Part shown: one piece after another, positions 4,897 to 42,000 of the stretch
How the letters are laid out: each line of letters begins with the position of its first letter
How positions within the stretch are numbered: the first letter of the stretch is position 1
From: Coffea arabica
Lineage: Eukaryota > Streptophyta > Magnoliopsida > Gentianales > Rubiaceae
Direction of reading: 5' to 3'
Assembly: GCF_036785885.1 (NCBI RefSeq)
Contig: NC_092312.1
Span: 17,998,001 to 18,062,000 of the forward strand
Length of the DNA: 64,000 nucleotides
The notes under the pieces: generated by a model
Database searches by the model: none
What the model was told of the DNA's origin: nothing
Seen by the model: only the letters and a program-made list of their open reading frames with translations
Translations under genes and position numbers: made by a program

Positions 4897-5468
4897 ACAG
4901 CTTGACATGACATTGTACAACTGATCCTTGTGACTACCGACTCTAATGCTAACATAGAAGAACTAAAACCATTCGGTCCAAAGGCGGAGATGGCTTTGGC
5001 GGCAATAGTGATGCGACAACAACTGATTAGTTTCGCTTCTCAACCGACATTTTTTGGGGAATAATTGAGGTCAATGTTCTGCAGTATTGTGCCTTAGCAT
5101 CCATCCAGAGTTAGAGGAAATGTCTTAATCAGTAGTAATTAGTTGTGTACACATTTCTTTTTCTGTTTCCCCTTTCTTGAGGGGAAGAGAAAACTTTTGT
5201 GTATATATATCCATCATATTATATATTTCCTAATGAAATTCTTGTTCACCAGTGGTATCTGGCAGAGTTGTTATCACTTGTCATTTGACTCTCTGCACTT
5301 CTTGATTTTGTGGCTACGAGTTTGATGTATAATTAATTGGCAGAAAATCTGGTCGCTGTGGAAGCCATTTGTGTTGTAAAACCTGAAAACTATGAAGACT
5401 TGGGTTCCCTTCATAGTTTTCGGACTAAATCCAAGTAAATAGAAGCATAAATTTGGCAAGCAAATATA
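4897..5468. other. 3' flank of QWRF gene
   Basis: This stretch holds the probable 3' UTR and downstream flank. No open frame resembles a protein. AT-rich tracts near 5210-5235 could serve polyadenylation, but no single site can be chosen. Confidence 0.5.
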
Positions 5469-5806
5469 CTCCCTCCGTCCCACTTTGATAGTCCCGTTTT
5501 TCTTTTTCGTCTGTCCCAAATTATAGTCCACTTTCCAATTGAAGAATGTAGTTGTATTTTAATTTTTCTAAAATACCCTTATTCAATGTAAGTTGTTGTT
5601 ACTATAAATCTATCCCATTTAATGAGAATTGATTCTTTTTTTACCATAAACCTACTCCATTCAAGTTTCCATAAAGTTGTACCATATTTAATGTGAGGGT
5701 ATTTTAGGAAAATAGCAATCTAAATTTACTTTTTCAATAAAGTTAACTACTTTTTCTTAAACTGTGTGAAAAAAGAAACAGGACTATGAAAGTGGGACGA
5801 AGGGAG
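5469..5806. mobile_element. Stowaway-like MITE (Tc1/mariner), copy 1
   Basis: This 338-bp element starts CTCCCTCCGTCCCACTTTGA and ends in its near-complement (AAAGTGGGACGAAGGGAG). A TA target duplication lies on each side (5467-5468, 5807-5808). The terminal inverted repeats cover about 26 bp. There is no coding capacity, so any movement would have needed a mariner-type transposase in trans. A close relative is at 14675-15007. Confidence 0.95.
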
Positions 5807-5808
5807 TA

Positions 5809-6544
5809 ATATTTTATTTGGTTAGAAGGTCGAACTTATGGGGAATGTAAAAGTTTGACGACGAGGGTAGATTCGTCCCAGCAACCCAATCCAAGGCTGC
5901 GTGGGGCACATAAACATTCCCCCGACCAACAAACTAAGCCACTGACAATGCATTTCCATTATTATGAAATGGCCTTTCTCTCCCTCGACTGAGAAAAATC
6001 CTTACCCTCGACTTAATGAATTGTACTTCCGGTTGAATAGCCAACCAAAATGGATCTTGAAGACCGTTTTTGGACCGTGACCCAAACAACCACCGCTAGT
6101 GCTAAACCGGAGGGGGAATTTTAGACCGCAACACCCAAAAGAAAGAGAATAAAAGAGGGGAATTTTGGACAGCAGTCAACTTTACTTGTTCAACGCTAAA
6201 ATTCAACCGGTGTTTCTGGAAGAGCAAATTAGGCCCGTTTCAACCCCAGAAACGGAAGCCGAACATACGAAAATGGGTTTCGAACGATTTTGCTACCCCA
6301 ACTCCGGGCGGAGCTGGCGTCCAAGTCATTCGGAGGGTTTTTTTGTTTAGCTTTAACCCACTAAGATATCTGCCAGATAGTCTACCGTATTTCCATCCAT
6401 CTTCATTCCTCCTTTGCGTGTGGAAGTTGAACCAACCAAAAAACACAAGTTTTGGACCACTCACATTAATTAACTCAACTCCAAGATTAAACTCGGTTGC
6501 CATGGTACTTGTCTTTTATTATGTACGATCACGATGCATTTAAA
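5809..6544. other. Intergenic, no gene recognised
   Basis: The open frames here (near 6165-6543) have no recognisable domain, start context or splice partners. I see nothing functional. Confidence 0.4.
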
Positions 6545-11551: not shown

Positions 11552-12477
11552 GCGAAGGAATGGGAGGGGGTGCATGGGATGGGAGGTGGAGAAAGGTAGA
11601 GAAGAATTATTGAGAGCCAAAAAAAAAAAAAAAGGCGCAGAAGGGAAGGAAGACGGGAGGAGGCTGGAAAAATTAACCATGGTTAAGGAGAGAGGATCAT
11701 ATTCGGACTATGGTTTGGAAGGATTTTCCCTTTCCTTTCTCTAGAGGCTAGAGTGAGCGGGTGGGTGGGACCATAATGTGATGTAACGAAAGGAACAATC
11801 ACCATTTTAGTGCAATTTGCATATGACCATGAATGTAACTTGGATAAAATGATCCTTGGAACATTTTTGACCTATCTTGACCATTAATTGATGGGGATGA
11901 TCGCATTTTTTATTTGGCCCCAACTTAATTGTCACAACAATGACTTGAACAATGGTTATCTCATCAATTCAGCAGTAGTAAAGCAGATTTTCCTCGAGTT
12001 TACAAGTCATTGTGAGGCTATGCTTGATATTCAAGAAAATACTCTTAGTATTTTTTTTTTTTTTAAATCATAGTATCGAAGGAACCCTGAAAAATCTCGG
12101 CATAGATCGAAACAACGAATTTCTCTACTGTATTGCATTTGGCCTTGTGCTTTGTCTTTTCTTTGAAATTGTCTTGATCGGCCTTCCACCCCTTCTGAAC
12201 GGCCAAAGAATCACCGTTTCATTTTCGTTAGTTACATAGTTACAGTTAGTAAATAGGTAATTGGGAAGATAAAAAGGTGTATTAGAAATTGTAATGGTGA
12301 TGTAAGTAAATATATTTGGACAAATAACTCACAATCCAAACACACTCAGTATTCGTATAATATATATTCACGTGTATGATTTAAAAAAAAAATTGATAAC
12401 ACGCATGTTAAAACAAACTCTCAACATAGATTAGTTTAGTATGCTAATAAAATTTAGGATAAATCTTATATACACTG
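11552..12477. other. LBD upstream region, no gene recognised
   Basis: GA-rich DNA near 11555-11670 is followed by AT-rich DNA. 'ctcacaatccaaacacac' at 12327-12344 looks like the right end of a GTTTGGATTG-type MITE whose left end is not clear. Confidence 0.4.
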
Positions 12478-14126: not shown

Positions 14127-14674
14127 TATAAAAGAAGAAAAAAAAAAGGACTTGGTAATTATAATATAAGACACGATAATGTTTGTATTTGCATTAACTT
14201 TGCAGTCGGGCCATTTTCGTCGGACATCTCATGCAATTCTCACATTGTGCTACTGTAAATGCTCGCTCACTTGTAGATCCATCCAAAATTTGGCCTCATA
14301 AACTTAAGATCAAGGGTAACTACTCTATTTCTCTTTAAAACGTTCAAATAACCTCTAGTGTTTTAGCAGAAAAATAAAAAGAAAAACAATAGAGGGAGAT
14401 TCAAAGAATAAAATATAACACCCACTAGATTTATACAACTAAGCAAAAGGGTTTTAGATTTGAAGGTACTTTCCTGATAGTATTATTATTATTGTCCTTT
14501 GAAGAACATGTAGGGATCTGGCTTTGGTTAGGCAAGATTCCCTTCCCTAATGCATCATCGTCACAGGAAACAATGAGTCGTCATCCTTCACTACTGCTAC
14601 ATCATATATTAATTCATCCAAACCCTTCTTCCCCGCCACTAATTTCATGCTTGCTTTGGTCGCATTTATAAGTA
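14127..14674. other. Intergenic, no gene recognised
   Basis: AT-rich DNA without a supported feature. Confidence 0.4.
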
Positions 14675-15007
14675 CTCCCTCCGTCCCACTTTGATAGTCC
14701 TGTATTTCTTTTTCATCTGTCCCAAATTATAGTCCATTTTTCAATTGAAGAATGTAGTTGTATTTTAAATTTTCTAAAATACCCTTATTCAATGTAAGTA
14801 ATTGTTACTATAAACCTACTTATCACATTTAATGAGAGTTGATTTTTTTTTACCATCAATTCAAGTTCCCATAAAGTTGTACCATATTTAATGTGAGGGT
14901 ATTTTAGAAAAATAACAATCTAAATTTACTTTTCCAACAAAATTAACTACTTTTTTCTTAAACTGTGTGAAAAAAGAAACAGAACTATCAAAGTGGAACG
15001 GATGGAG
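14675..15007. mobile_element. Stowaway-like MITE, copy 2
   Basis: This 333-bp element starts CTCCCTCCGTCCCACTTTGA and ends in the near-complement TCAAAGTGGAACGGATGGAG. TA lies on both sides (14673-14674, 15008-15009). It is closely similar along its whole length to copy 1 at 5469-5806, so both derive from one recent family. Confidence 0.95.
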
Positions 15008-15009
15008 TA

Positions 15010-15771
15010 TATCTTAAAACTGGCAGTTTAAATTTTAGACAAAGATCTCTGAGTCCAACATATACATTTATTTGTAAACATATTAATTGTACGAACTGAT
15101 CTATGCATTCATGGAGATGCGCATCAATTACGCTTGTGCGTTCTTATAAACCAAGTCCAATTGTAAAGTCTTAGAAAAGGAATCATTTGGCATGTCACAC
15201 AGAAACGAGAAAGATAATCCAAAACACCATCCCGATTTCTTCTTTTATTTTTTTAAAAATTTTTTTAATAATAAAAAAATCCAATAAGGTAGGCATTTGC
15301 TACTGTATATACTAGAATGTGGATAGAGTCCCGGCCGGTGAGTTGCTTTGGCCGTAAAATGGAAGGTGTAAACAAAGCGCGTGATTAACGAAGCTGAGAG
15401 TGAAGATCGATAAAATAAAAATAGTGGCGGCAAGGAACTGACTACTGAGGAAGAGTCAATGAATATGAGGAGGACGTCGAAGAAGAAGATTGTGGTCGCA
15501 GATCGTAGTCTTGACTTGGGCTACGTGGCATCTCAATCCGTTTCTTGGCGTCTTTTTTCACCTCAACGTTGGGGTTGGGCACAAACAAATCCACATACGA
15601 CGTCTTGCTGGGCTTGGGACACCAAAAATTTGTCCCTTTTTATCCAATTTCATAAAATATACATTTATTTTTCTATGGTGTAACTTATTTTGAACACAAA
15701 GTAAATATATAATAAATTGTTATGAATCTCACACAGAATTAAAAATAACATACACGCAATGATCTAAATCT
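15010..15771. other. Intergenic, no gene recognised
   Basis: Overlapping short frames at 15459-15693 have no recognisable domain. Confidence 0.4.
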
Positions 15772-15792
15772 TATATATATATATATATATAT

Positions 15793-16480
15793 GGAAAAAT
15801 GATCGGTTTCATCCTTCACATTTTACAAAAATATTCTTTTCGTCCCTTACTTTTGAAATGGAGCAATTTCATCCTTGACATTTAAAAACTGAAATTATTA
15901 CATCTCTAAACCTAAATTTCAATTTTAATCAAACCACCAATCAACCTGATTACAAATTTTGGAGGTGTAATTAGAAGATCACTTAGTTAACTCAACTTGA
16001 TATTCATGTGAAATTTAATGAATCTAAAAGAAAGATTAATTTTTTTTAAAATTATCATTGTATACACTGACGGTTTTATGTACCGCATATCATTTAAATT
16101 TAAATTTAAATATCAAATTTTATATTTATGATACACATCTAGATTCGCAAGCGGATATACTAACGGTGCATGAAAAGATTTATCAAAAAAAAAATTCTAC
16201 TATTCCAAAACAAAGAATGGCCTTTTATGTTATAATTTTTATTTTTTTGGTTTAATAAATGTCATGTGAATATGATGAAGTTGACCGAATAATTTATCAA
16301 TTTTATTTTCGAAATTCATTGTTGGGTTATTGGATGGTTTGATTCAGATTGAAAATTAGGTTCAAGAATGTAATGGATTTAATTTTTAAATGTCAAGAAC
16401 GAATTTGCTTCGTTTTTATAAAAATGAGGGATGAAAAGAATATTTTTATAAAATGTAAAGGATGAAACATTTCATTTTTC

Positions 16481-16481
<1 letters not shown>
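15793..16481. mobile_element. Long-TIR element (Mutator-like MITE candidate) in a TA repeat
   Basis: The left end (ggaaaaatgatcggtttcat...) is the inverted match of the right end (...atgaaacatttcatttttcc). The match continues inward for about 240 bp, for example 'cattttacaaaaatattctt' against the complement of 'aagaatatttttataaaatg'. Both sides are TA repeats (15772-15792, 16484-16534), so a target duplication cannot be told from the repeat. The long arms favour a Mutator-like origin. No transposase is encoded. Confidence 0.75.
16058..16165 (+). repeat. Dispersed 'actgacagtgtata' repeat, diverged copy inside the long-TIR element
   Basis: 'gtatacactgacggtttta', with an AT-rich body of 'atttaaat' units, lies in the centre of the 15793-16481 element between its arms. 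It is related to the copies at 12478 and 42031. Confidence 0.45.

Positions 16482-16483
<2 letters not shown>

Positions 16484-16534
<51 letters not shown>
16484..16534 (+). repeat. (TA)25 microsatellite
   Basis: Uninterrupted TA dinucleotides border the right end of the long-TIR element. A shorter run, 15772-15792, borders the left end. Confidence 0.95.
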
Positions 16535-18570: not shown

Positions 18571-18585
18571 ATGGTTGGAGTAGTT

Positions 18586-18896
18586 GTTAAGTGCTGCGGA
18601 GCACTTCAAAAGTTGCCGGCTTTTGAAGTGTCTTCGCAGAGTCCATTTATCGAAACACTCATACAAAAAACTGTGAGTTATGAAAGGGAAAAACCTGTCT
18701 CGGGGAGTCTGGGGGGTCTTTATCTCTTAGCAGCGGGGCACCCTGTGGGGTTAAGTTCCCACATCGCTTGGGGGGGTTTGGGGGGTTTAGTAGTTAAGTG
18801 CTGCGGAGCACTTCAAAAGTTGCCGGCTTTTGAAGTGTCTTCGCAGAGTCCATTTATCGAAACACTCATACAAAAAACTGTGAGTTATGAAAGGGA
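18586..18896 (+). repeat. Perfect 104-bp direct repeats around a G-rich spacer, flanked by a 15-bp duplication
   Basis: Positions 18586-18689 and 18793-18896 are identical base for base. Each contains a strong hairpin: stem cacttcaaaag / cttttgaagtg (18602-18612 with 18620-18630), 7-nt loop ttgccgg. The spacer 18690-18792 is G-rich, with several runs of four to seven G. The block is bracketed by a perfect direct repeat, atggttggagtagtt, at 18571-18585 and 18896-18910. No known element is recognised. It could be a tiny LTR-type (TRIM) element, a retroposed unit or filler DNA copied during break repair. Confidence 0.85.
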
Positions 18897-27624: not shown

Positions 27625-28934
27625 ACAACAAAACAATTGGATAAACCAAGGAGGTTTTTTCTATTATTTGCCACGCCGCACTTATGAAGATATTTTATTC
27701 TTTAGCATTCACAATTGCAGTGATTTCTCTGTCAAAAACATTTTAGGTCATGTTGCTAACAAGTGTTGTTGAGTATTCATGTTCACTTGTGAAAGTTTCC
27801 TTGAGTTCAAACCTATCCTTTGTCATCAATTTTGTAAACGGCGGAAGGTGCTAAGAAAAAAAAATTGCTTCGAAAGTTGGAAGAAAATGAAAATATAAAA
27901 CATCTTAAAATCTAATTATGAGGGACAGTGCAACCCATCAATACTTTTCTTAATTTAATTAATTAATGGGCCGCTGCTGCTACAACGGGCGAGGAAGAAC
28001 AAGAGTACATGATAGTGTAATATATGCTCGTTCCCTCTCATTAAAAGTATTTTATTTTTCATTTTGGGATCTCACAAAGTATTTGTTATGTTAAGAAAAT
28101 TAAAATATATTTTAATTTTTCCTTTTAATACAGGTCCTCCTTCTAATCATATGCATGTTATCGCTTAAATTCAAATTTTAAATTTATAAAGATAAAATTG
28201 AAATGAGAAATACGAACATCAAAGTCAAGACATTATTCTTAATATGGCTTTCCTTAGATTGTATTTTTCTGATTTTTTTTTTATAAAAAATTATTACAAC
28301 GATTTGATATATATAAAATAAAAATGTAATTAAAAAATATGTTTACGAAAAACACAATAAATTTTCTTTGAAAAATTGTTTTCCAAACGAAGACAATTTG
28401 CGAAATATGACGGACAAATTGCCCGCAGGGCGGGGTGGGGGGGGGGTTAAAAAGGACACTCCTGACGAACCAATGCCACGTGTTGCTGACTGTGCCGCCA
28501 TGACTGCAATCTCCATGCAATTTTTTACTATTTTGATTCTTTAAAGTAACTTTCGATTCTAGCACCACCATAGAATTTCGAAGTCCCATTCTTCAAAGAT
28601 TACTGCAATAAACTACTTTATTTTATTATAAATATTTGTATTTATTTATCAACTCCTGCCTTTTTATCTCAACCCGTATATTTATTTTGACAGAAAAAAG
28701 AGTCAACTGCTTTCGTCATCTACCATTCAGCGGTGGGGCAATCGAACTCCAAATGAACCAGTAATTAGTAAACCATAGAGAGTGAATCTAGCGGTTGCTT
28801 GAGGATAGACGCTAAGTTGTGGAGAAGGGCAATGTTCGCTTTCCACCAAAATGCCATGGTAATTGTTTGATAATCGCCTTTCTTGTTTGTCCATTTATCA
28901 AATTCCCATGGACTCAGCGTCAATCCCTCGTGGG
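27625..28934. other. Intergenic, no gene recognised
   Basis: 'ttccaaacgaagac' at 28381-28394 looks like the end of another GTTTGGA-type MITE, spanning perhaps 28255-28395. A G-run lies at about 28436-28447. No gene. Confidence 0.4.
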
Positions 28935-29082
28935 TTTGTTTGGATTGTGAATTATTAGACATATTTTTACTGTAATATTTTTTGTGATGAAAAAATAATT
29001 AAAAAGATTAAAAAATGTGCTGAAAATTGTAATGATAATATAAATAAATATATTTTGATAAATAAACTGCAATCCAAACAAA
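28935..29082. mobile_element. Small MITE with TTTGTTTGGATTG ends
   Basis: TTTGTTTGGATTG at the left is the exact complement of CAATCCAAACAAA at the right, 148 bp in all. The interior is AT-rich and partly self-complementary. No unambiguous target duplication was found. Confidence 0.7.
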
Positions 29083-29289
29083 TTCATTATTATCAAGAAG
29101 GAATCCCTAACAAAAGCTTTTTTCTTTCTCTTCTTTTCAACAAGTTGTTGATGACGAAAACCTTTCCTCTGTTGGTATTATTGCCACACAATTTGGTTAA
29201 ATAAATAAACAAGTACCTATCATCATTGATGCATCGAAAATATTTAAACAGCTTTGCTAAACGAGCCCAAAGCATCCGAGGGGTGGGTT

Positions 29290-29305
29290 GGGGGGGGGGG
29301 GGGGG
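29290..29305 (+). repeat. G16 homopolymer
   Basis: A run of 16 G preceded by 'gggtgggttg'. Length may reflect slippage. Confidence 0.93.
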
Positions 29306-29765
29306 ACAACAGAGCAAAAACTGGACAGGACGGATCCCATATCTGCCAGAGGTTGGAAAATCCTTAGGCTTACGGTTTTAGCAGACTAAAGTAATTAGAG
29401 ATGCAGTCTTAGCCTCTTGTTCCAGCATGTAATTTATTACTTCTGCCAAAATGACTTTTGGCCCATAACGCGTTGCAATAAGGTTCACATTTACAACTCA
29501 CAGATGTACTAAACAAACAGATATTAGTAGTATTAACGTCAGGCAATAGACTAGACTCACACGCAGCACATGGGCAGCAATGCCATATCCTTAGGCACAG
29601 ATCAGTTTAATTAAAACTACTGCTCGTGTTTTATGTTTTGCAGCCGCTTAATCAACCAAACTTCGATTAAATGGCCAACAACAACACTCTAATCATGGCA
29701 TAATAGCCTTTGCTTTAAATTATAGGGCAAGGACTGGGACAAAATAGCAAGATTCAAATTATGTA
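29306..29765. other. Intergenic, no gene recognised
   Basis: No supported feature. Confidence 0.4.
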
Positions 29766-29773
29766 GTCTACGT

Positions 29774-30134
29774 TAGGGTTGCAAACGAATCAAATTGCTT
29801 ACGAGCCAATCGCAAGCGGCTCGAGTCCGAATTCGATCTAAAAAATATTAAGGTTATTAACTTGCGAGTCAGCTTGAACTCAATTATACATATATATATA
29901 ATTTTAATAGTAAAATTACGTATAAATCATTAATATTTTATTAATTATTTAAAAAATTATTATTATTACTTATTTTTAAAAAATAAAATAATTATTTTTT
30001 GAACTCGAGCTCGAGTTCAAATTCGACTCGAATTTGAGTTGAGCTTGAGTTCGAGTTAGAGTTTCGTAAAATTATGTTGATATTCGATTCGATTATGACG
30101 AAACTCGATTCGATTCAGTTCGTTTGCATCCCTA
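29774..30134. mobile_element. hAT-like MITE, best-preserved copy of the 'cgagttcgag' family
   Basis: The 361-bp element begins TAGGGTTGCAAACGAATC and ends with the near-complement of TAGGGATGCAAACGAACT. Flanks gtctacgt (29766-29773) and gtgtacat (30135-30142) agree at six of eight bases, as in an old hAT target duplication. Interior facing motifs 'gaactcgagctcgagttc' and 'cgaatttgagttgagc' allow a hairpin. No coding capacity. Confidence 0.8.
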
Positions 30135-30142
30135 GTGTACAT

Positions 30143-30737
30143 CATTTTTAATATTAGATCTAAATTTCATAAAAACTTGTTTTATATTAATATTGTGTTG
30201 AAAGCGATTTAGTATATTCTAAACAAACGAACTTACTTTCTATTAAATCGAATAAAACCATTCTGAAACGGTTGCGCTGCAACCATTCATGTTGATCACT
30301 GGATCCCTTGAGTGAACAATCTGCTTTCAAATGGTCGAAAGAAAACGATTCCACGTGAACGCAACAGGCAGGTGGCAAGGAGATGAAGATGACCATTTGG
30401 GCATTTACGTCAAAGACTGCATGTGATGCCAATGAGTTTCAGGCCAACTGCTGGATGCAATGCAAAGCCTATATAGACCCAGTACATCAGCTACTTCCTG
30501 TCAGTTGCAGCCAAAAGGATCAATAAGATCTCTAAAATCCATCATAACAAACCCTTTTTTCTCATTTACTACCAGCACTGCTCAATAGAAATTTGCGGGC
30601 AGCAGAACAGCGGATGCAAGTTTTCGCCGCCACCACTATTAGTACTTCTTACTCATTGGTTGCCTTATTTCTCAAGACTATTCCCGTTATACTAATGCGC
30701 AAAAGTAGTCAGACTTTCTTGTAAAATGTTATAAGTT
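30143..30737. other. Intergenic, no gene recognised
   Basis: An 81-codon minus-strand frame (30187-30432) has no domain or promoter support. Confidence 0.4.
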
Positions 30738-30889
30738 GCGTTTGGATTGTAATTTTTTGAAATTTTTTTTAAAAATATATTATAATAATTTGATACATGT
30801 AAAATAAAAAAAAATAATTAAGAAATACATTCATAAAAAATATAAAAAAATTTTGATAAAAAAAAACCCTTTCCAAACAAGACTACGCT
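30738..30889. mobile_element. Small MITE with GCGTTTGGATTG-type ends
   Basis: The left end 'gcgtttggattgta' faces the right end 'ttccaaacaagactacgc', about 152 bp in total, with an AT-rich interior. Related to 28935-29082. No target duplication assigned. Confidence 0.55.
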
Positions 30890-31635
30890 GTAGAACTAAT
30901 ATTAAACATTCTAAAACATGTGCAAGGGTGTAGAACTAATGTTAAACAAAAAATGTGTATATTCCCATCTGATTAAAACCTAGCACCAGCGAGTGATCTT
31001 TCTTATCCAGAGTAATTTAGCAAGAGGATTGATATTGCGAAGTAGCTTGTTCAATACAGGTGTTTTAATAAGATTTGTTATTTTTGAAAAAACGTGCATT
31101 TTATGTATCGTAGAGAAGAAAAAAAGAGTTTTTACTTTTTTTAATATTTTAATAACGAGTCATATTTTATTTGATATATTAATAATTATAGAGAATAAGT
31201 TGTAGATTATATGAAGAATAGAGATAAAATTTTATTAAAAAATGGATTGGCTTCTTTGCGATGATAATTAATTTGGACAAAAAAAAAAACTGTCAAACAT
31301 GATAAATTTTATGAAATGGAAGAATATAATTTTAAAAAGAAGATGGTGACATCAATGTATGATTGCCCTTTACTGGACCTATTAATTATAGCACTATGAG
31401 CAATTATACCCATAGCCTTATCAGCTTTTAACAGTCAAACAGTATATTTGTTGTTTTTACAGCATAAATTCGGATCGTACCACTTTCCAGCACGACGTGA
31501 AAATGATGATATCCCTCGAGTTATTGCGACGCAGTTGCGGTACGTAAGATGGATTGGATTGAATTGAAAGACAAGATCAAAATTTACGACTATAAATCTT
31601 TTAACTTTTAAGGCAATGGCGAAAATTGCACAGAC
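30890..31635. other. Intergenic, no gene recognised
   Basis: AT-rich. No supported feature. Confidence 0.4.
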
Positions 31636-32034
31636 TAAAATCGCAAATAAATCGAATAAGTCGAATTTTGATCCAATCAAATCAAATCTTGATTTAGTTT
31701 ATTAAGTTTCAACTCGACGAGTTATCAATTTAAAGTTTGAATTCGATTTTGACTCAAATTCAAATCAAGTTCAAGTTAAAAAAAATTAAAAAATTTTTTA
31801 TTTTATTTTTAAAAATAAATAAAATAATATTTTTAAAATAAATAATAAAATATTAAAAAATAAATATATATTTATTATTAAAATAAAAAATAAATATATT
31901 ATATACTCGGTCTTGTGAATCGATTTGCATGCTAACAAATTTGATATTTTTTAATTCAAATTCGAGTTTGAATTCAATTTGGTCAAGTTGAACTCGACTC
32001 ATAACACTCGCGAACGGTTCGATTCGTTTGCAAC
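31636..32034. mobile_element. hAT-like MITE of the 'cgagttcgag' family, degenerate
   Basis: The left part reads 'aaatcgcaaataaatcgaat' and the right part 'ggttcgattcgtttgcaac', with interior 'aattcgatttt' and 'aattcgagtttgaattc' and an AT-only core. The right end matches that of 29774-30134. Borders are approximate. Confidence 0.6.
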
Positions 32035-32099
32035 TATAACCCTAACTAAAGCACCTAAAGATCTGTTAAGGCCCCGACACAAGCACCTATAAATCTTTT

Positions 32100-32220
32100 T
32101 AGGCGTTGTTTGGATTGACACTTTTCTTTAAAAATTTTTTATGAATATATTTTTTTATCAATCTATTATAATAATTTTTTAATAAAAAATTTTAAAAATA
32201 GCAACTCAAATAGACTTTAA
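32100..32220. mobile_element. Possible small GTTTGGATTG MITE
   Basis: 'gttgtttggattgacactt' at the left and 'aatagcaactcaaatagac' at the right may be the ends of a very degenerate copy. Confidence 0.35.
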
Positions 32221-32979
32221 TGTTAATTTAGGGACATTATACCAAATTAATATTCAACCGTCTAATACCATGATGCAAAGCAGATCCAAAAGATTGACGC
32301 TCAACTTTCTAATATGTTTCAAAGAAACTAAAGAACATCTTGAAATACTCAAGAAAAGTTGTTTGCATTAATAAGGGGTCTATTTGGATGATTTATTTTT
32401 AGATATTTATCAAAAGTTTTATAATAAATTATTATAATTATTTTCTAAGCACCTTTCCTCCTTCTCACCGCCCACCACCTGCCACCAACAAACTCTGTGT
32501 CACGCATCACTAATACCGCCTCCGCCACTTTAATGTAATTTTATTGATTGTGTGGTTTGTAAAACTTGTGAGTGTTTAAATGTTACCGTAAATAATACTT
32601 TAAATAAATTTTGCTTTTCTAAAACATGCCAAAAATAGGCTATCAAAACAAAGCCAATAGTCAGGTCAAAGATCCGAATACCCATTCCGTCATTAAAAAA
32701 AAACAAAAACAGAGCCAATAGTGAATAGTTATGCTACAAGACTCAATAGTTGTGTTAAAATTATTCAGAAGACTACCTAAAATATCGATTTCTTTGCTGG
32801 TTTCATCGACGGGTATCTCGTCAGCAGGTTAGGTCTCAAACTCAAAAGGACACGTGTTCCACATAAAACAAGTAGTTTCAATTTCAATCTATTTATTTTA
32901 TCCGTATTGGAAATTGCGATGCTGTTCCAAATTAAAGCGGTGACTACATAATTTCACGCATGCATGACATACAGTAGCT
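32221..32979. other. Intergenic, no gene recognised
   Basis: No supported feature. Confidence 0.4.
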
Positions 32980-32988
32980 CTATTATTT

Positions 32989-34142
32989 GGGTTAATATCA
33001 TAAACCTCCCTTGAGGTTTCTTCTAATTACACCTAGAACCCCTCATGTTTTCGAAATCACACTTAGCACCCCCTGGAATGACAACTTTGGTATCATTGTC
33101 AGCCCCTCATTATTTTTGTTCCACTTTTACCCTCCTTGTGAACTCTATTTATGTAGAGTTAATTTCGAAAACCTCAAACCTCCCTTGAGGTTTTCCCTAA
33201 ATTATGTAAAACTATTATGTAATTATGTAATTTTTTTGTACAAAGTGTAATTCTAATTGAACTATTTGTAAAACTTATCAACACAAATACGATTATTACA
33301 TATTGGACTCATATGTACACTAACAACTTATCACACTTCTATTGTAACGATGTACAAGAAATTTACATAAAATTACAAAATGTTCAAAAAATGTTACACG
33401 ATTTAGGGATGGTTGATCGAACAATTGTTCCTATCCCACTCCCTAATATTAAATAGCTATAGAGTTTCCAGTGATGTTGACTTTTGGCAATGGACATAGT
33501 GTCATTGCCAAAATTGCAATTTCTAAGTGAATAATAACATAATCTAAAAGTAATTTAAAGATGATGGAAATTCATGAGTATATAGCATTAGTAATCCATT
33601 TTTACTTGATAATAGGGTATCGCAATATTAATTACTTACAAACTCCATTCGACTAGGATGCAAAAAAAGCTATTTATACCACCTCATTTTTACAAAAATG
33701 AAAGAGCAAGTTTATTTACAACTACAACCACATATTGAAACTATTGCTGCCATTATGAGAATCCATAGTCACATTTTTTTTATCTCTGTTCAGATCAATA
33801 TAACATTTTTTAAACAATGTGTAACTTTATGTGAATTATTTGTAAAACTTAATAACAGAAATGCAATCTATTATAAAGATGTACAAGAAACTTACATAAA
33901 ATTACAAAATGTTCAAAACATGTTACATTGCTCAAGGACGATTTTGTAGTGTTACAAAAGTTGGAGGGATGTGAGTTGCATAAATAGAGTTCACAATGAG
34001 GGTAAAAATGGAACAAAAATAATGAGGGGCTGACAATGATACCAAAGTTGTCATTCCAGAGGTGCTAAGTGTGATTTCCAAAACATCAGGGGTTCTAGGT
34101 GTGATTAGAAGAAACCTCAAGGGAGGTTTCTGATATTAACCC
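32989..34142. mobile_element. Mutator-like MITE (element 1) with 168-bp TIRs and 9-bp target duplication
   Basis: The 1154-bp element has termini GGGTTAATATCA...GATATTAACCC. The inverted repeats cover about 168 bp (32989-33157 against 33975-34142) with few mismatches. A perfect 9-bp duplication, ctattattt, lies at 32980-32988 and 34143-34151, diagnostic of Mutator-type insertion. An internal direct duplication (33340-33400 and 33877-33930, 'gatgtacaagaaa-ttacat') separates the arms. There is no transposase; it is non-autonomous. The left target duplication of element 2 overlaps the right one of this element. Confidence 0.92.
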
Positions 34143-35002
34143 CTATTATTTACGAGATAATTTCAAAAACATCCTTTGAGGTTATATTATTTGGCACTTT
34201 TGAATTTTGAAAAATATCACTTGCTTCCTTTATTTTCAACCTTTTATAACATTGCAAGCCCAATTTAAAATATATTATTAAAAACTCAATTTTTAATCAA
34301 GAATATATTTTTATTTCAATATTGTCATTTTCTTGTGCACCTTTTTTTTTTTTGTATTCATAATAAATCTCGATAATCTCTTAAACTTTTAAGAACTTGG
34401 CCATTATGGTTTTGTAGTTAAAAATTATAGGATGTTAACAAGATTGAAAGAACTTTTAATAATTTTCATGCCATCGGTCTGCACAATAAATATAAAATTT
34501 AGATATTCACGAGACTTTTCAGTAAAAAGAATAACCTCTTTTGGTCTTTGAAAACGTCTCAAATAAGCTTGTAAACTTAATTTTAAACATGTTTATTTTA
34601 GTTTTCTAAAATTCTAACAATTTGAAAAACTACTCAAGTTGACTGCAAAACTTTGTGGTAAATTAATAATATTATTTGACTTTTATACTTTAAAGTGCCT
34701 ACTATTATATTGTATCCCACTAAAAGTGCACATTCATACATTTTGTCCATTGATTTCAAAATTTTCTTAATACACTTTAATTTTACAAAAAAAAAAAAAA
34801 AATTAGGACAACAAATGGCACTTTTGGAATGAAAACATCTTTTCTATCCAAAATTGAGTTTTTTTTAATAATATAACTTAAAATTAGTTAATAATCTTTA
34901 CTATACTAAAGGTGGGAGTTTGGATTGCTACAGTGAAAATGGGCCAGTTATAGCGCGATTTGTGTGAACTTGAGGGACGGTTTGGTCTTGTGCCATTCAG
35001 TT

Positions 35003-35150
35003 GTAGTGGCTTTGCCGGAAATTGCTCGAAATTTGTTGCTATCCATGTGGAGTTGTTGTGGGCGGTGGGTTCAGTGGTAGTGCCTTTGCTAGAAATTGCT
35101 GGAAATTAGTTGCTATCCACGTGGAGTTGTTGTGGGCGGTGAGTTCACTG
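35003..35150 (+). repeat. 74-bp tandem duplication inside the Helitron
   Basis: Copies 35003-35076 and 35077-35150 share 'ggagttgttgtgggcggt' and 'gttgctatcca' at the same spacing, with a handful of substitutions. Confidence 0.85.
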
Positions 35151-37554
35151 TTATCAGCTGTCTGCATGGCCTTCGATTCGCTGGTGTCCGCATGGTGGCT
35201 TTGTTTCCATCCGTTCCATTCTGCTCGTACCCCGCGTGTTGTCCTCGCATAGGGACACGCGTAGCGGTGGATTATGGTACAGTACAAGAACCGCTGCTAG
35301 AAAGCTTGGCAGTTTCCACTACCCTCTCATTCTTTTCTTAGCTTTCTTTGCTAGTTGCTTTTTTTTTTTTTCCTTCGTCTCTTCCTACTGAATTGTCTCC
35401 TACACCACGTCTTTCTTCATAGTTGAACCGCTGCGCAAAGGCTTTGCAATCTCTATTACTGCGTCTCATTTGTTTCTTAGTCTGTGCAAAACTAGATCTT
35501 CGATTTTCCTATGATCGGCGGAGTTTGGAGTGCCAACCTCCACAGTTTTGTTGCCTTTAGTCGGATTTTGAATTCGATGTGTTAAGCATGGTGCCATGAA
35601 ACAATAATTGGAATAAGGCTGGTGGAGCGTCTATTCCTTTTTGGTGTCTTACTCCCTTGCCCTACTGAACACAGGAGTAACAGACAAAAGGCCTCTCCTA
35701 TTTAAAGGATAAAGTTTGTGATTCAAAAAAAAACCAGACCAGTTGTTAGAGCGGGGTAGGATAGGCAATTAACATGATTGGTCCCATTTCAGTTTAAGTT
35801 GTTGGATGTGAGTACATCTGTACTTTGGCTTCTTTTCTTTCAATTTTTATGGAGCCTGCGCATTGGAGTAAGTTTTGTTTATGGTTCTGTGAATCAAAAG
35901 TTATGGTACTACTCTTATTGGAACCTTCTTACTTGTGTATAGCTGAGTTTATTTAATGGGTCGTTCGCGGAAATATGTAAGTTTGGAAAAAGCGACTAGA
36001 GAGAGGAATGCGAGGAGGCGCCGGCAGCGTGCCAATGCAAGTGCTCATGCCAATTCTAGAGAATACCGAGGTGTGTGTACTGTGGTTATAGATGTACGTA
36101 GTATACGTGAGCTGTGCATAAGAAGGATACTGTGTTATATTAATTCATGTATTAGTTATCTTGGAGTATTTAGCATATTTCACTCTTTCCTGATAGTGCT
36201 TCTGTTCTGCTGATTTGTCGAGGTTTCGAAAAATTACAATTGATATGAGAAATGCTGGACTTTAGATATATTGACGATGCTAATACAAAGATTAGTGAAA
36301 TATTTATTCCTTTGAACAGATACTGCTGCTAGAACAAGACTTTCTGTACCTATCAAGCAGTGGCCCTTCATCCGTGGAATTGAGATGTAAGAGTATGGTC
36401 AATATCGATACTGAAGGAGTGAGCGGTCAAGATGGACATCATGTTTTGTTTGGGTTTGCCCTCTTACTCTAGAGTTCAGACGCTAGAATTCCTTCCTCTC
36501 TCCCTCCAGTGGCATTTTTTAGGAAGCATATATGTGCCATATATAAAGTTTGATGCCCTTTACGGTGTTGTATTGTTAGTTCTTTCTTCTTCTTTTTATT
36601 TTTTTTGCCTTTATTATAAAGGATAAAATGGATTTATTCTCTAACAAAATAATAAAACAATAATTTTACTATAACTTCGAATCTTCCCATATTTTTACGT
36701 TCAATTTCTTCATGTTTATCTACTATATTTGACACACATTTTTTCAATTTTTCTTTATTAATATCACCGAAATTAATCCCATGCACTTGTTTCCCCTATA
36801 ATACTTCACTTTTGTAAGAGAATTATTATTACAAATATTTTTATTCTAATTAGTTATACACACATCTGAGTGTGCCTTAATCACTATTATGTATAACGAG
36901 AAAAGAATTACTGAACATGTTTGAACTAATTCTTGATAAGAAATTTCAGAAAAGTAATGTACTACCCAATCTTTAGCTTTATGTACTTTTATTCGTATTT
37001 TCTTCATTTAGAGTTTTAATTTTTGTTTATATTCTTAATTAGGCTTGCTATAAAAATTGAAACCTAGAAATTGGAACATTTGATTTGTTTCTTAGGGTTT
37101 GGGTGTATGTATGGTGGAAGTTGGACCAGTTTTGAGTGCTTCAACTTTTAGATACAATGTGGTATATCCATTATTATCCTCTTTAGGTCTCTTCGTGTAA
37201 GGCATTAATAGTGCAATATCATGCAAGCAAACTTTTCTTGCTGCAATAGAACGATGAAACTTGGCATCTTTGTGTTTGATTCACGTTGAAAGCAGCATCT
37301 TACATTTCTACTGTTTTGCAAATGTAGCTTTACGAAATATTGTTTGATTATCTTACATTTCAACAAAGAGTTTCAAAATATACAGTATACACTGAGTTTA
37401 TTTGGATGATTTATTTGAGATAATTACTGTAGCACATTTTATGATGCGATATATGTGAGATAAAACGGTGATTGGGAAGATAAAAAGGTGATTGGAATTT
37501 GTGAAGCAAATTATTTTTTTCAAATCATTTCAATCTGCACACTCACTGTCATTT

Positions 37555-37655
37555 TTGGATACATGTCATATATACAAAAGTTGATATTAGAATTTAAATT
37601 TGGATTAAATAATATGCATTAAAATGTGAAAATGTATACTGTCAATATAAACAAG
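37555..37655 (-). repeat. Dispersed 'actgacagtgtata' repeat, inverted diverged copy in the Helitron
   Basis: On the minus strand it reads 'tatattgacagtatacatt', followed by 'atttaaattctaatatcaa', resembling the 16058 copy. Similarity is modest. Confidence 0.35.
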
Positions 37656-37689
37656 AGGATCCTCCTGTTTTGGAAAAAAAATTTAAAAA

Positions 37690-38084
37690 AAATATGAAGG
37701 AATCCCATGGCCATGTAAACATTTTTTCTTTTTTTTTTTTTAGAAAAGTATAAACTTTCTTCATAAAAAAAATATGCAATTTAAGAAATGAATTATAGTT
37801 TTTAAACTTTTACAGTAGTCCCAATTTTTCTTTCGAGCATGAAAAAATGATTCTATAAATACATATTTTCGGATTTTAAACATGAGTTTGTTACTAAAAA
37901 TATGAAGGTATCCCGTGGCTGTGTAAACTTTTTTTTTTTTGATAAACTTTCTTCATAAAAAAAATATGCAATTTAAGAAATGGATTATAATTTTTAATTT
38001 TTACAGTAGTTCCAATTTTTCTTTCGAGCACGAAAAAACGATTCTATAAATACATATTTTCGGATTTTAAACACGAGTTTGTTA
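37690..38084 (+). repeat. About 200-bp tandem duplication near the Helitron 3' end
   Basis: Copies 37690-37894 and 37898-38084 share long stretches, including 'ccaatttttctttcgagca' and 'acatattttcggattttaaa', and differ mostly by a T-run length and point changes. The high similarity means the duplication is younger than most repeats here. Confidence 0.9.
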
Positions 38085-38892
38085 CCCCATTCGTAAAATA
38101 GATCCACTGCCTAAATTATGGGCAACTTCGATGGCTTTTGCATTCGTGCTTCAGTTGTGTGCTTGGTCAATTTTGGTGGCCTTTGTGTTTGTACTTCAGA
38201 GTTCAGACGTGTATTTGTATCTTCATCGTATAGTTGTAGTTGCTTGAGCTCCCCTGGTGAGTGGGCGGTGGGTGGTGTCCGAAGCGGTTTGTGGGAGCCG
38301 TACAAAGCTATATTGCCTGTAATCTTGAGAGAAAGACATCTGAAAAGCAACATATTGGATGTGTTTCTTTCTCCAATTGAAGACCTGGATTTGGCAGTTT
38401 TACAAGGTGAAGTCTTCGCACTCTCACCTAGCTGATCTTGTTTAAACTTACTTCATTCTTGATTAGATACAAATAGTGTGTGCATAGTTTTAAAAGTGAT
38501 CAGCATCACCATATTTATGATATTTGTATGTACTTGTACATTTTAAATGAATGCATCATTTATTTATAGTATCAATAATTCGCAAAAATCTTAAGACAAA
38601 GGCTGACTATCTAAGAGAAAATTACAAATCAAATGAGTAAAGTCAAATTCTCCACATTTATTAACACCTGTCATGTCTGAAATATATAACCATTTCACAT
38701 TATCCACTTGCCTTCATTTGATCTTGATTAACATAGACCCAGGACATCCTCACGCATTGCGTGAGGCTGAAAAAACTAGTGTTATAAAAAAGCACAAGCA
38801 CAAGGGCAAGTAATATTTTTTAAAATTTAGAGGTACTGCATAAAATTGTTAAAAACCTTAAGGAAGGTTTTTGAAATTGTCCCATTATTTAT

Positions 38893-39842
38893 TGCTTTCG
38901 TAATATACATTATTCATCCTTGATGGAAAAAGTCGTTAATCCAGTGTAAAATTGCAACTCTGCAATTGTAATCATCATTTCCATCTGCGTCTGCGCTCGC
39001 CATCGAAGGGCGAACTGAAAAGCCGTTCTCTAAGGCTTTAGGCCGCACACTTTAGGAACAACATGTCAGGTTTCAACCAATATTAACCAGTTCACCAGGT
39101 ACACCTTTTGAATATGGTTAGCAATATTCTTTTTTGACTTTTCTTAATTTAAACGTGCAAGCTTAAATTTTGATTTAGTCCATTTTTTTCTCAAGAGCTT
39201 TTATATCGCCAACGACCCGAGTTTTTTTTTTTTTTTTTTTTTTTTGACAATCGCCAATTGCCAGAGCTAGTAACAAAAATTAAATCGTTTCTAGCTCCAA
39301 TGTAAAAGCTCATGTACACGAATGAGTTTTATGACCCAAAATAGTAACATGGATATTACATTGTTCCGAACCATTAGAATCCGAAAATTTTGAAACTATT
39401 TTATATGAATTTTTTAAATAAGGTATAGATAAAGTGTTTTTAGAACCATATTTAAAAAATCTTTGACTCTGCATGAATTAAGTGTTCCTGAAAATGTTTT
39501 TCAAATATTATACTGTATCATTGTATTTAAAATATTTGGCATGGTAGTTATTTATTGGTGTTCTTTTTAAATCTAAATTTTTATTAAAATATTTTTTTAA
39601 ATTGAAAATACAGCAGCCACTAGTGCCGCCACCCTCCTCCTTCCTCTCTACTACCTCCAAAAAAAGTGGTAGCATCGGGTGATGCGTGGAAGAAGAGATG
39701 TGGTAATTTTTTATTTAATTTTTTAGATTAATCTTTCATATACTACTAGTGTATATATTGATGAGATTGAATAAATATCGCATCATTTGAATTTGAACGC
39801 CCAAATTATGGGTATTGCAATTTGTCTAATATAATAGATTAC
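38893..39842. other. Intergenic, no gene recognised
   Basis: A T-run lies at 39222-39245. No supported gene. Confidence 0.4.
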
Positions 39843-39845
39843 TTA

Positions 39846-40575
39846 GGGTCTGTTTGATAATATACAAAAGTATTGAAACTGAACGTTTTCAGATATTCAG
39901 ATTTTTTGAGTAAATTACTTAGGCTTCGTTTGATAAAACTGAATCTAAATCATGAAGTCTGAATTCTAAAATCTGAATATTGAAACAATTAATTTGCTGA
40001 ATTTTAAGTACTGAAAAGAAATATATGAATGTCTGAATTTTAATGTTAAACCTATTTATACGGTTTGATAAACATTTATAACTGAATACTTAATAAGTTG
40101 AATTTAACAAATTTGCCCTTATATTTTTTCATCCAAAAAAGAAATAGAATATAGGATTTAATTAGCTAAAAATGTTATATATGAAAATGATAATATATAT
40201 TTTTAAATCAAATTAATATAAAAGATGAAATATATTATATGAGGAGTATGAATAAGATGTGAAAATCAATCAAAAGGGAAAAAAATAGAAAATCATTAGA
40301 TAGAAAATATTAGATTGTTTAATTAGATAAGAATTTTGAACATAATTAACAAACAATGGTAGATTTGGTAGATAAGATAAGGTAATTGAAGTAATTCTAT
40401 TGATTCTTATCAGAATTAAGCATTTAGTTAGAAGTTTTGTACTGAAAAAAATATACACAAGTTCAGCATTACTTAACAAATTCAACAAATGGATTTTCAT
40501 TTGTTAAACACTCAAAACATATGAATGTCTGAAAAAATTCAGATTTATCACTTTTTTATGTTATCAAACAGACCC
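39846..40575. mobile_element. Tourist/PIF-Harbinger-like MITE with TTA target duplication
   Basis: This 730-bp element has termini GGGTCTGTTTGATAA and TTATCAAACAGACCC, exact complements, flanked by TTA at 39843-39845 and 40576-40578. A second left-end-like motif, 'ggcttcgtttgataaaactg', at about 39932 suggests a nested or duplicated relative. No transposase frame is seen. Confidence 0.9.
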
Positions 40576-40582
40576 TTAGTGT

Positions 40583-40584
<2 letters not shown>

Positions 40585-40614
<30 letters not shown>
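40585..40614 (+). repeat. (AG)15 microsatellite
   Basis: Uninterrupted AG units lie just right of the Tourist-like element. Confidence 0.93.
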
Positions 40615-40618
<4 letters not shown>

Positions 40619-42000
40619 TTGATGTTCTCGCGGACTACGAAAATGAAGAAAGCATAAATGGTTCTATAAAATTTGTTGTTAAGAATTTTGTGAGCCTAAT
40701 TAGAATGTCTTGCACTGGACTATACTCATATAGTGCCTAACTTGCTGACCGCGAAGTCCAAAAGGATCGAGGAATCCAATGTTCCGAAGTCCACGGGCAA
40801 AAGATCATGGGAATGGATGGAGATCACGGGCTTGAGAATAGCCTATGGACTGCAACTGCAAAACTATTTCCTACTTCTCTTTTTCTGGATGCAACCTTTT
40901 CCAACGAAAATGTCTCAAAGACGGAACACACGATTGAGTTCATGGAGGCCTACCTTTGACCAGCTTGGGTTGGACACATGAATGCCTTTGATTCTAACTC
41001 ACACCTGGGCCCCTTGGACAACTGAGACCGGTCACTCACGTTGCAATTTTAACACGAGCCAGCTGAATCCGAAACACTTAGACAGCAAACATGTTATCGC
41101 CCCAGTTAGGCCACCGGCCAGCCTAGAACTCCACTCTCGTGTTAGGCTTCGTTTGACAATTTAATTTAATAATTTTAAATTTTAATATATTTAGATGTGT
41201 TTAATAATAAAAAATAAAATATTTGAATTAATTCATCTTTTCATCTCACATATATCAAATTGTATATTTTTCTATAAAAATTCTGAAAAATAGTAATTCA
41301 AACTGTGGCGGGGGCAATAAGAAGGGGAAGGAAAGGAAAGGAAAAAAGGTTCATCAAAAGGACGGTAAGAAGATATATATATATTATATTGGATAGAGTA
41401 AGAAGATAAAGAGGTATGTTGAGCAGGTAGACCATAATTCTAAAAATAAATGGATTTGTGCCGCTCTCGTACGGTGTTAAGGTTTGTGCTACATTTGACG
41501 GGAAGGAAAGAAACAATAAGATAGACGCAGGCAGGCAGGCATCGAATACTACTTTTCCCCCAAAGCTTGAGCTCCGTCTTGCCTCCCTCGTAAAGTAATA
41601 TGATGATTCTATCACCGATCCGAGCATTTTGTCCCTGCCCCCTTAATCAAAGGCTGAGATGATGCATTAGCCATCATATTGTCCTTGCCCCAATATCAAT
41701 GGCTGAGCTGATGCATTAGTCTTGTTAGTTCGTACCCCTCCCCTACTGGCTACTCCACCCAGCTTGATTCTTTTCTCCCCCGCCGGTTATCCAAACATTT
41801 ATAGCTCACGAATTCGTCTTCATTAATACTAGTGGAGTAATTAATGGAAAAGTCGTGGCAGTCCAACCAAGCAATCTCTTCATTCTTACGAGGCAGACAC
41901 CCCTCCTATTACGCGTATGTTTTTGGTGTTGCCAGACAAGTATGACGTGAATAGCATAAACGAATTCAAACAACTTTTAGGGGTTTCGTTGCCCGCAAGC

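Follow-up and report, generated by a model that had tools for sequence, protein, structure and literature searches.

The block at positions 32980-38892 of the window (the whole 64-kb stretch of DNA that was analysed) very probably arose through three ordinary transpositions at one AT-rich plant site, involving two related Mutator-like elements, here element 1 and element 2, and a later Helitron; such an arrangement seems unexceptional in a plant genome. The first-pass annotation had described two Mutator-like MITEs and one Helitron whose junctions can be read, a description that the structure supports, and its coordinates and letters proved correct on re-check, confirming the observation. Its picture of a three-layer nest has to be redrawn as one nest and one neighbour, since element 1 adjoins element 2 and lies neither inside nor around it. 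The features are collected in Table 1.

Each of the two non-autonomous elements would have been brought in by a transposase that cut the target with a 9-bp stagger, and the 9-mers that they hit overlap within one site, CTATTATTTAT. The Helitron would then have entered the right arm of element 2 by rolling-circle transposition, between A and T and without a target duplication. The transposases would have been supplied from elsewhere, and the common target would follow from a choice of AT-rich targets and from copy number, with no attraction by the older element.

Table 1. Features of the block and their positions in the window.
Feature	Position	Strand	Remarks
Element 1, non-autonomous Mutator-like	32989..34142	.	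1154 bp; inverted arms and perfect 9-bp duplication
Left 9-bp target duplication of element 1	32980..32988	+	CTATTATTT, 9/9 against 34143-34151
Left arm of element 1	32989..33153	+	
Third, internal copy of the 18-bp terminal palindrome (element 1)	33176..33193	+	exact match
Right arm of element 1	33979..34142	-	
Right 9-bp target duplication of element 1	34143..34151	+	seven bases common with the left duplication of element 2
Element 2, non-autonomous Mutator-like	34154..38883	.	845 bp without the Helitron; arms aligned, 184 sites, 53 differences
Left target duplication of element 2	34145..34153	+	ATTATTTAC, 8/9; three other equal 9-base placements
Non-autonomous Helitron in the right arm of element 2	34895..38779	+	3885 bp; TC, hairpin, CTAG, A/T target
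3' hairpin of the Helitron	38748..38766	+	
Outer part of the right arm of element 2	38780..38883	-	
Right target duplication of element 2	38884..38892	+	ATTATTTAT

Genomic setting

Judged from its sequence, the window is of land plant origin. Pfam matches were found in five of six scanned open reading frames (QWRF, NPH3 in two of them, LOB, and C2H2 zinc finger), these six being part of the 13 frames of at least 120 aa listed in the window. The block itself is AT-rich, with a GC content of 30-35% in 2-kb windows, and there is no coding sign in 32989-38883, where all 27 overlapping stop-to-stop frames of at least 55 aa fell below the Pfam cut-off; the matches beneath that cut-off (Pyr_redox_2, NAD_binding_8, Glyco_transf_9, TehB, Skp1_POZ, Focadhesin, HVO_0234-like, and DnaG zinc ribbon) were weak and were attributed to chance. 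Rfam, at its gathering thresholds, and ARAGORN gave no match in the window.

Several other repeats are present in the same window. Serial inverted matches at 29772-32040, 0.9 kb to the left of element 1 (29772-30003 against 31786-32040; arm score 116, at most 52 in 200 single-base shuffles), suggest a diverged inverted-repeat element of about 2.3 kb that consists partly of low-complexity AT. About 1 kb to the right of element 2, 39841-40580 is a MITE candidate with 71-bp inverted arms, 83% complementary, and ends AGGGTCTGTTTGATAA, where no exact duplication of at least 7 bp was found at the offsets tried. An inverted-repeat element of about 0.7 kb at 15772-16505, with (TA)n on both flanks and arms (15772-15946 and 16325-16505) that are 83% alike over 184 columns, TA runs counted in, resembles microsatellite-targeted MULE MITEs. 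Two copies of a further inverted-repeat element, at 5462-5816 and 14673-15016, are 89% alike over 355 columns and have the ends TACTCCCTCCGTCCCA, which we take to be Stowaway-like, and 18581-18896 holds a 109-bp direct repeat, 99% identical, with 207 bp between its copies.

Structure of the two Mutator-like elements

The extreme ends of element 1 are GGGTTAATATCA and its mirror. When the region is compared with the window by BLAST, the arms of this element align over 165 columns at 95.2% identity; they differ by seven substitutions at 164 compared sites, a K2P distance of 0.044. Its duplication stands directly outside both ends, so that the arms and the 9/9 flanks bear out the element and the perfect duplication first described; random pairs of 9-mers, in 400,000 draws from 28000-42000 with near pairs excluded, agreed at 9/9 with a frequency of 2.3e-5 and at 8/9 or better with 4.6e-4. 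The interior contains repeat blocks at 33338-33398/33867-33927 (93%) and 33232-33293/33806-33867 (79%), and the internal copy of the terminal palindrome, AAACCTCCCTTGAGGTTT, scores 36, where the best of 300 shuffles reaches 27. A whole additional TIR was considered in element 1 and rejected, as only the 18-bp palindrome recurs, and another inverted match, of 11 bases, is no better than chance (score 22, shuffle maximum 25).

Element 2 has the ends GAGATAATTTC and GAAATTGTCCC and, as had been proposed, inverted ends and a 9-bp duplication with one mismatch. Four placements of this duplication, by matched shifts of 0 to -3, are equal at 8/9, and alternative flanks can be read as an exact 8-mer, ATTATTTA, with ends uneven by one base, or as 9/10 and 10/11 placements, also with uneven ends; the placement of the first-pass annotation is favoured, since with it the ends are symmetrical and equally long. 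The value of 8/9 falls within the limit of up to two mismatches in a target duplication that is tolerated in PMC3310237. The claimed seven-base overlap between the duplications of the two elements lies at 34145-34151. Without the Helitron, the arms of element 2 are identical at 131 of the 184 compared sites (K2P 0.38). Set against a single mismatch in nine duplicated bases, this distance suggests that the arms were probably unequal from insertion onward, which makes them a poor clock.

Mutator-like elements typically have duplications of 9-11 bp and inverted arms of 100-500 bp. Element 1 shows both, with its 9/9 duplication and its 165 columns of arm; element 2 shows the long arms and, at 8/9 and with several placements possible, the duplication. 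On duplication length and arms, both are likely to belong to the MULE superfamily, and the names 'Mutator-like' and 'MITE' rest on structure, because no transposase gene was seen in the frames of 32989-38883 and no second copy of either MITE within the 64-kb window.

Membership of another superfamily, piggyBac or hAT, is improbable. The TTAA contained in GGGTTAA stands three bases inward of both ends of element 1, as a piggyBac element might have it, but the symmetry of that element continues beyond the TTAA through three arm bases and nine duplicated bases, and element 2 has no TTAA at the corresponding place; the exact 8-mer around element 2 would suit the 8-bp duplication of a hAT element, but at the cost of leaving its ends unequal. 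On these grounds piggyBac and hAT ends were rejected. More doubtful still, to the point of being scarcely credible, is one large composite element with outer ends at 32989 and about 38881-38883. If its right end is shifted two bases inward, the outer flanks do match at 8/9 (CTATTATTT and CCATTATTT), but two bases are then lost from the terminal CCC, and neither the perfect duplication around element 1 nor the pairing of arms within each element is explained. This reading was rejected as well.

Searches beyond the window were in keeping with a plant element: the longer terminal pattern had no occurrence in viral contigs and none in prokaryote genome contigs, as expected, and two matches to the palindrome in viral contigs were put down to chance, their similarity to the window ends spanning at most 33 columns. 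A text search of the literature returned no match for the palindrome and its variants and, for six end sequences, 20 papers, none of them on transposons by title. Repbase and supplements stood outside the scope of both searches, for which reason these negatives do not make the families undescribed.

Relation between the two elements

Elements 1 and 2 have a terminal match of about 26 bases in common, which includes most of the 18-bp palindrome. Each of the four arm comparisons gives this match a score of 32, whereas the best shuffles lie between 26 and 31 (300 shuffles each), so that the margin is small in one of them. The palindrome occurs five times in the window with up to three mismatches, where 0.08 occurrences are expected, whereas the interiors of the two elements do not match (scores 25 and 22, shuffle mean 25.7 in 50 shuffles); we take the elements to be distinct but related families.

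At the right end of element 2 the palindrome reads AAACCTTCCTTAAGGTTT, with two changes at mirrored positions that keep it palindromic. Three of the four ends form a better hairpin than their shuffles (z -2.9, -3.5, and -3.1), while at the left end of element 2 the hairpin is lost (z -0.63), and for the 150-nt end of element 1 taken whole, 19 of 200 shuffles fold at least as well (z -1.33). The palindrome may be a transposase-binding or fold-back module.

These features can be set beside MuTAnT, the Mutator-like MITEs of Medicago, for which PMC4486113 describes 9-nt duplications, GGGG ends, and fold-back arms. The likeness lies in the long arms with fold-back modules, the G-rich extreme ends, and the 9-nt duplications; the differences are that MuTAnT targets (TA)n, whereas the target here is plain AT-rich sequence, and that the published end, GGGGTTTGCTAGAACA, is unlike the ends of elements 1 and 2. 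The third palindrome copy just inside the left arm of element 1 recalls the MULEs with multiple long TIRs described in PMC3310237, but in element 1 it is only the 18-bp palindrome that recurs.

The Helitron and its position in element 2

The Helitron has a 5' TC at 34895 and a 3' CTAG (of the CTRR type) at 38776-38779, and it stands between A at 34894 and T at 38780 without target duplication. Its hairpin has a perfect stem of 8 bp and a loop of 3 bases; the stem ends 9 bases before the CTAG and 13 before the 3' end, and the fold has a z of -5.35, none of 200 shuffles being as good. Termini, hairpin, and flanks thus agree with the insertion that had been reported inside element 2. They are the marks of plant Helitrons given in PMC4683698 and PMC2575219, and by description the copy can be likened to Mothra and other non-autonomous plant Helitrons in the former (5' TC, 3' CTAG, A/T target, no duplication, and a stem of 16 bases at a distance of 13 bp from the 3' end). 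A text search with its 5' words returned two papers, one of them on maize Helitrons (PMC10095026). The RepHel gene, which is a mark of autonomous copies only, was not found, the longest stop-to-stop frame being 113 aa; judged on such frames, its absence is consistent with a non-autonomous copy.

The Helitron came later than element 2, as had been claimed, because its removal makes the arms collinear through the insertion point. With the Helitron taken out, the two arms of element 2 align on either side of the joint, and the score of the local alignment is 104, against 49 with the Helitron in place and 48 for the best of 300 shuffles of the joined right arm. The portion of the arm inward of the Helitron scores 69 by itself, against at most 40 in 500 shuffles, and Helitron sequence substituted for this portion scores 22. 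Twelve bases that span the joint, AA followed by TGTTATAAAA, recur in the left arm of element 2.

Within the Helitron there are tandem duplications at 34996-35147 and 37683-38085, with 74-bp units (89%) and blocks of about 200 bp (84-94% by piece). A 43-column match (86%) links 37461-37502 to 12250-12292 and is possibly a fragment of another repeat. An open frame at 35947-36210, with an arginine-rich stretch, MGRSRKYVSLEKATRERNARRRRQRAN, and no Pfam match, may be a remnant of a Helitron gene or of a captured gene.

Order of the insertions

For elements 1 and 2, the claim that the order can be read from the sequence does not hold at their junctions. A placeholder script that started from the pre-insertion site gave an identical string for the order 2 then 1 and for the order 1 then 2, and the junctions between the two elements therefore carry no order. 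The first-pass annotation had also argued from the perfect duplication that element 1 is later than element 2. This comparison (0 against 1 mismatch in nine) hardly discriminates: if the divergence is 0.05, no mismatch in nine has a probability of 0.63 and one mismatch a probability of 0.30, so that the duplications alone do not separate the ages of the two elements. Arm divergence does support the claim, weakly, with K2P 0.044 in element 1 against 0.38 in element 2, and on balance it is likely that element 2 was inserted before element 1.

In the reverse order, element 1 would have come first, and element 2 would have landed in the right duplication of element 1. This would leave exactly the same final sequence, but it is the less likely course, given that element 1 has the more similar arms and the perfect duplication, both of them weak clocks. 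Between the Helitron and element 1 the sequence gives no order.

The shared target site

Elements 1 and 2 stand 11 bp apart, and the sequence that joins them is CTATTATTTAC. End-to-end, non-nested Mutator-type MITEs joined by microsatellites are described in PMC5907723 for guayule, rice, sorghum, and citrus, and PMC8449440 reports the same of the Ac-mMITEs of pineapple. The present pair resembles SaTar (guayule, rice) and Ac-mMITE in consisting of non-autonomous MULE-type elements placed end to end, neither interrupting the other, but it differs in its ordinary duplications and 11-bp joint, where those arrays are microsatellite-joined; the microsatellite flanking and joining of a SaTar-type array was not found around or between elements 1 and 2. 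Since PMC5907723 states that members carrying ordinary duplications do not form end-to-end assemblies, an end-to-end pair with ordinary duplications is the one mildly unusual point of the block.

Some MITEs insert preferentially into each other, as work on nested maize and rice MITEs has found, and the first-pass annotation saw a hint of such self-preferring insertion here. That suggestion rests on one pair at a common AT-rich target. The two strands of the window together contain 45 occurrences of the seven-base overlap motif, ATTATTT, and 13.4% of 9-mers carry at least eight A/T. With copy numbers and genome sizes assumed, the expected number of chance pairs spans 0.06-48 over four settings: 0.06 to 0.5 for 1,000 + 1,000 copies, 0.17 to 1.3 for 1,435 copies each in 380 Mb, 1.6 (uniform targets) to 12 (AT-rich targets only) for 5,000 + 5,000 copies in 500 Mb, and 6.4 to 48 for 10,000 + 10,000 copies. 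Because of these estimates, the single pair found in the scan is no evidence of attraction, nor is it evidence against it, and a common AT-rich target together with copy number may suffice to explain the adjacency.

Insertion could instead be targeted to edges, a transposase on the terminal palindrome shared with the resident copy steering the second element to its edge. The terminal module common to both elements and the seven-base overlap of their duplications would suit this explanation, but only one pair is at hand, and chance would give 1.6-12 pairs at 5,000 copies each, though 0.06-0.5 at 1,000 each; we regard it as a remote prospect. There is equally little likelihood that palindrome-sharing Mutator-like MITEs generally recruit each other to their edges, with overlapping non-microsatellite duplications as the signature. 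Chance sharing of a common AT-rich target is the reading we prefer.

Implications

The block makes a clean teaching case. In element 2, the inverted arm of the element itself serves as an in-window empty-site control for the Helitron, and the neighbouring pair illustrates how the order of two insertions is lost when their target duplications overlap. Edge-targeting, if it were true genome-wide, would extend the end-to-end stacking of microsatellite-targeted MULE MITEs to ordinary AT-rich DNA.
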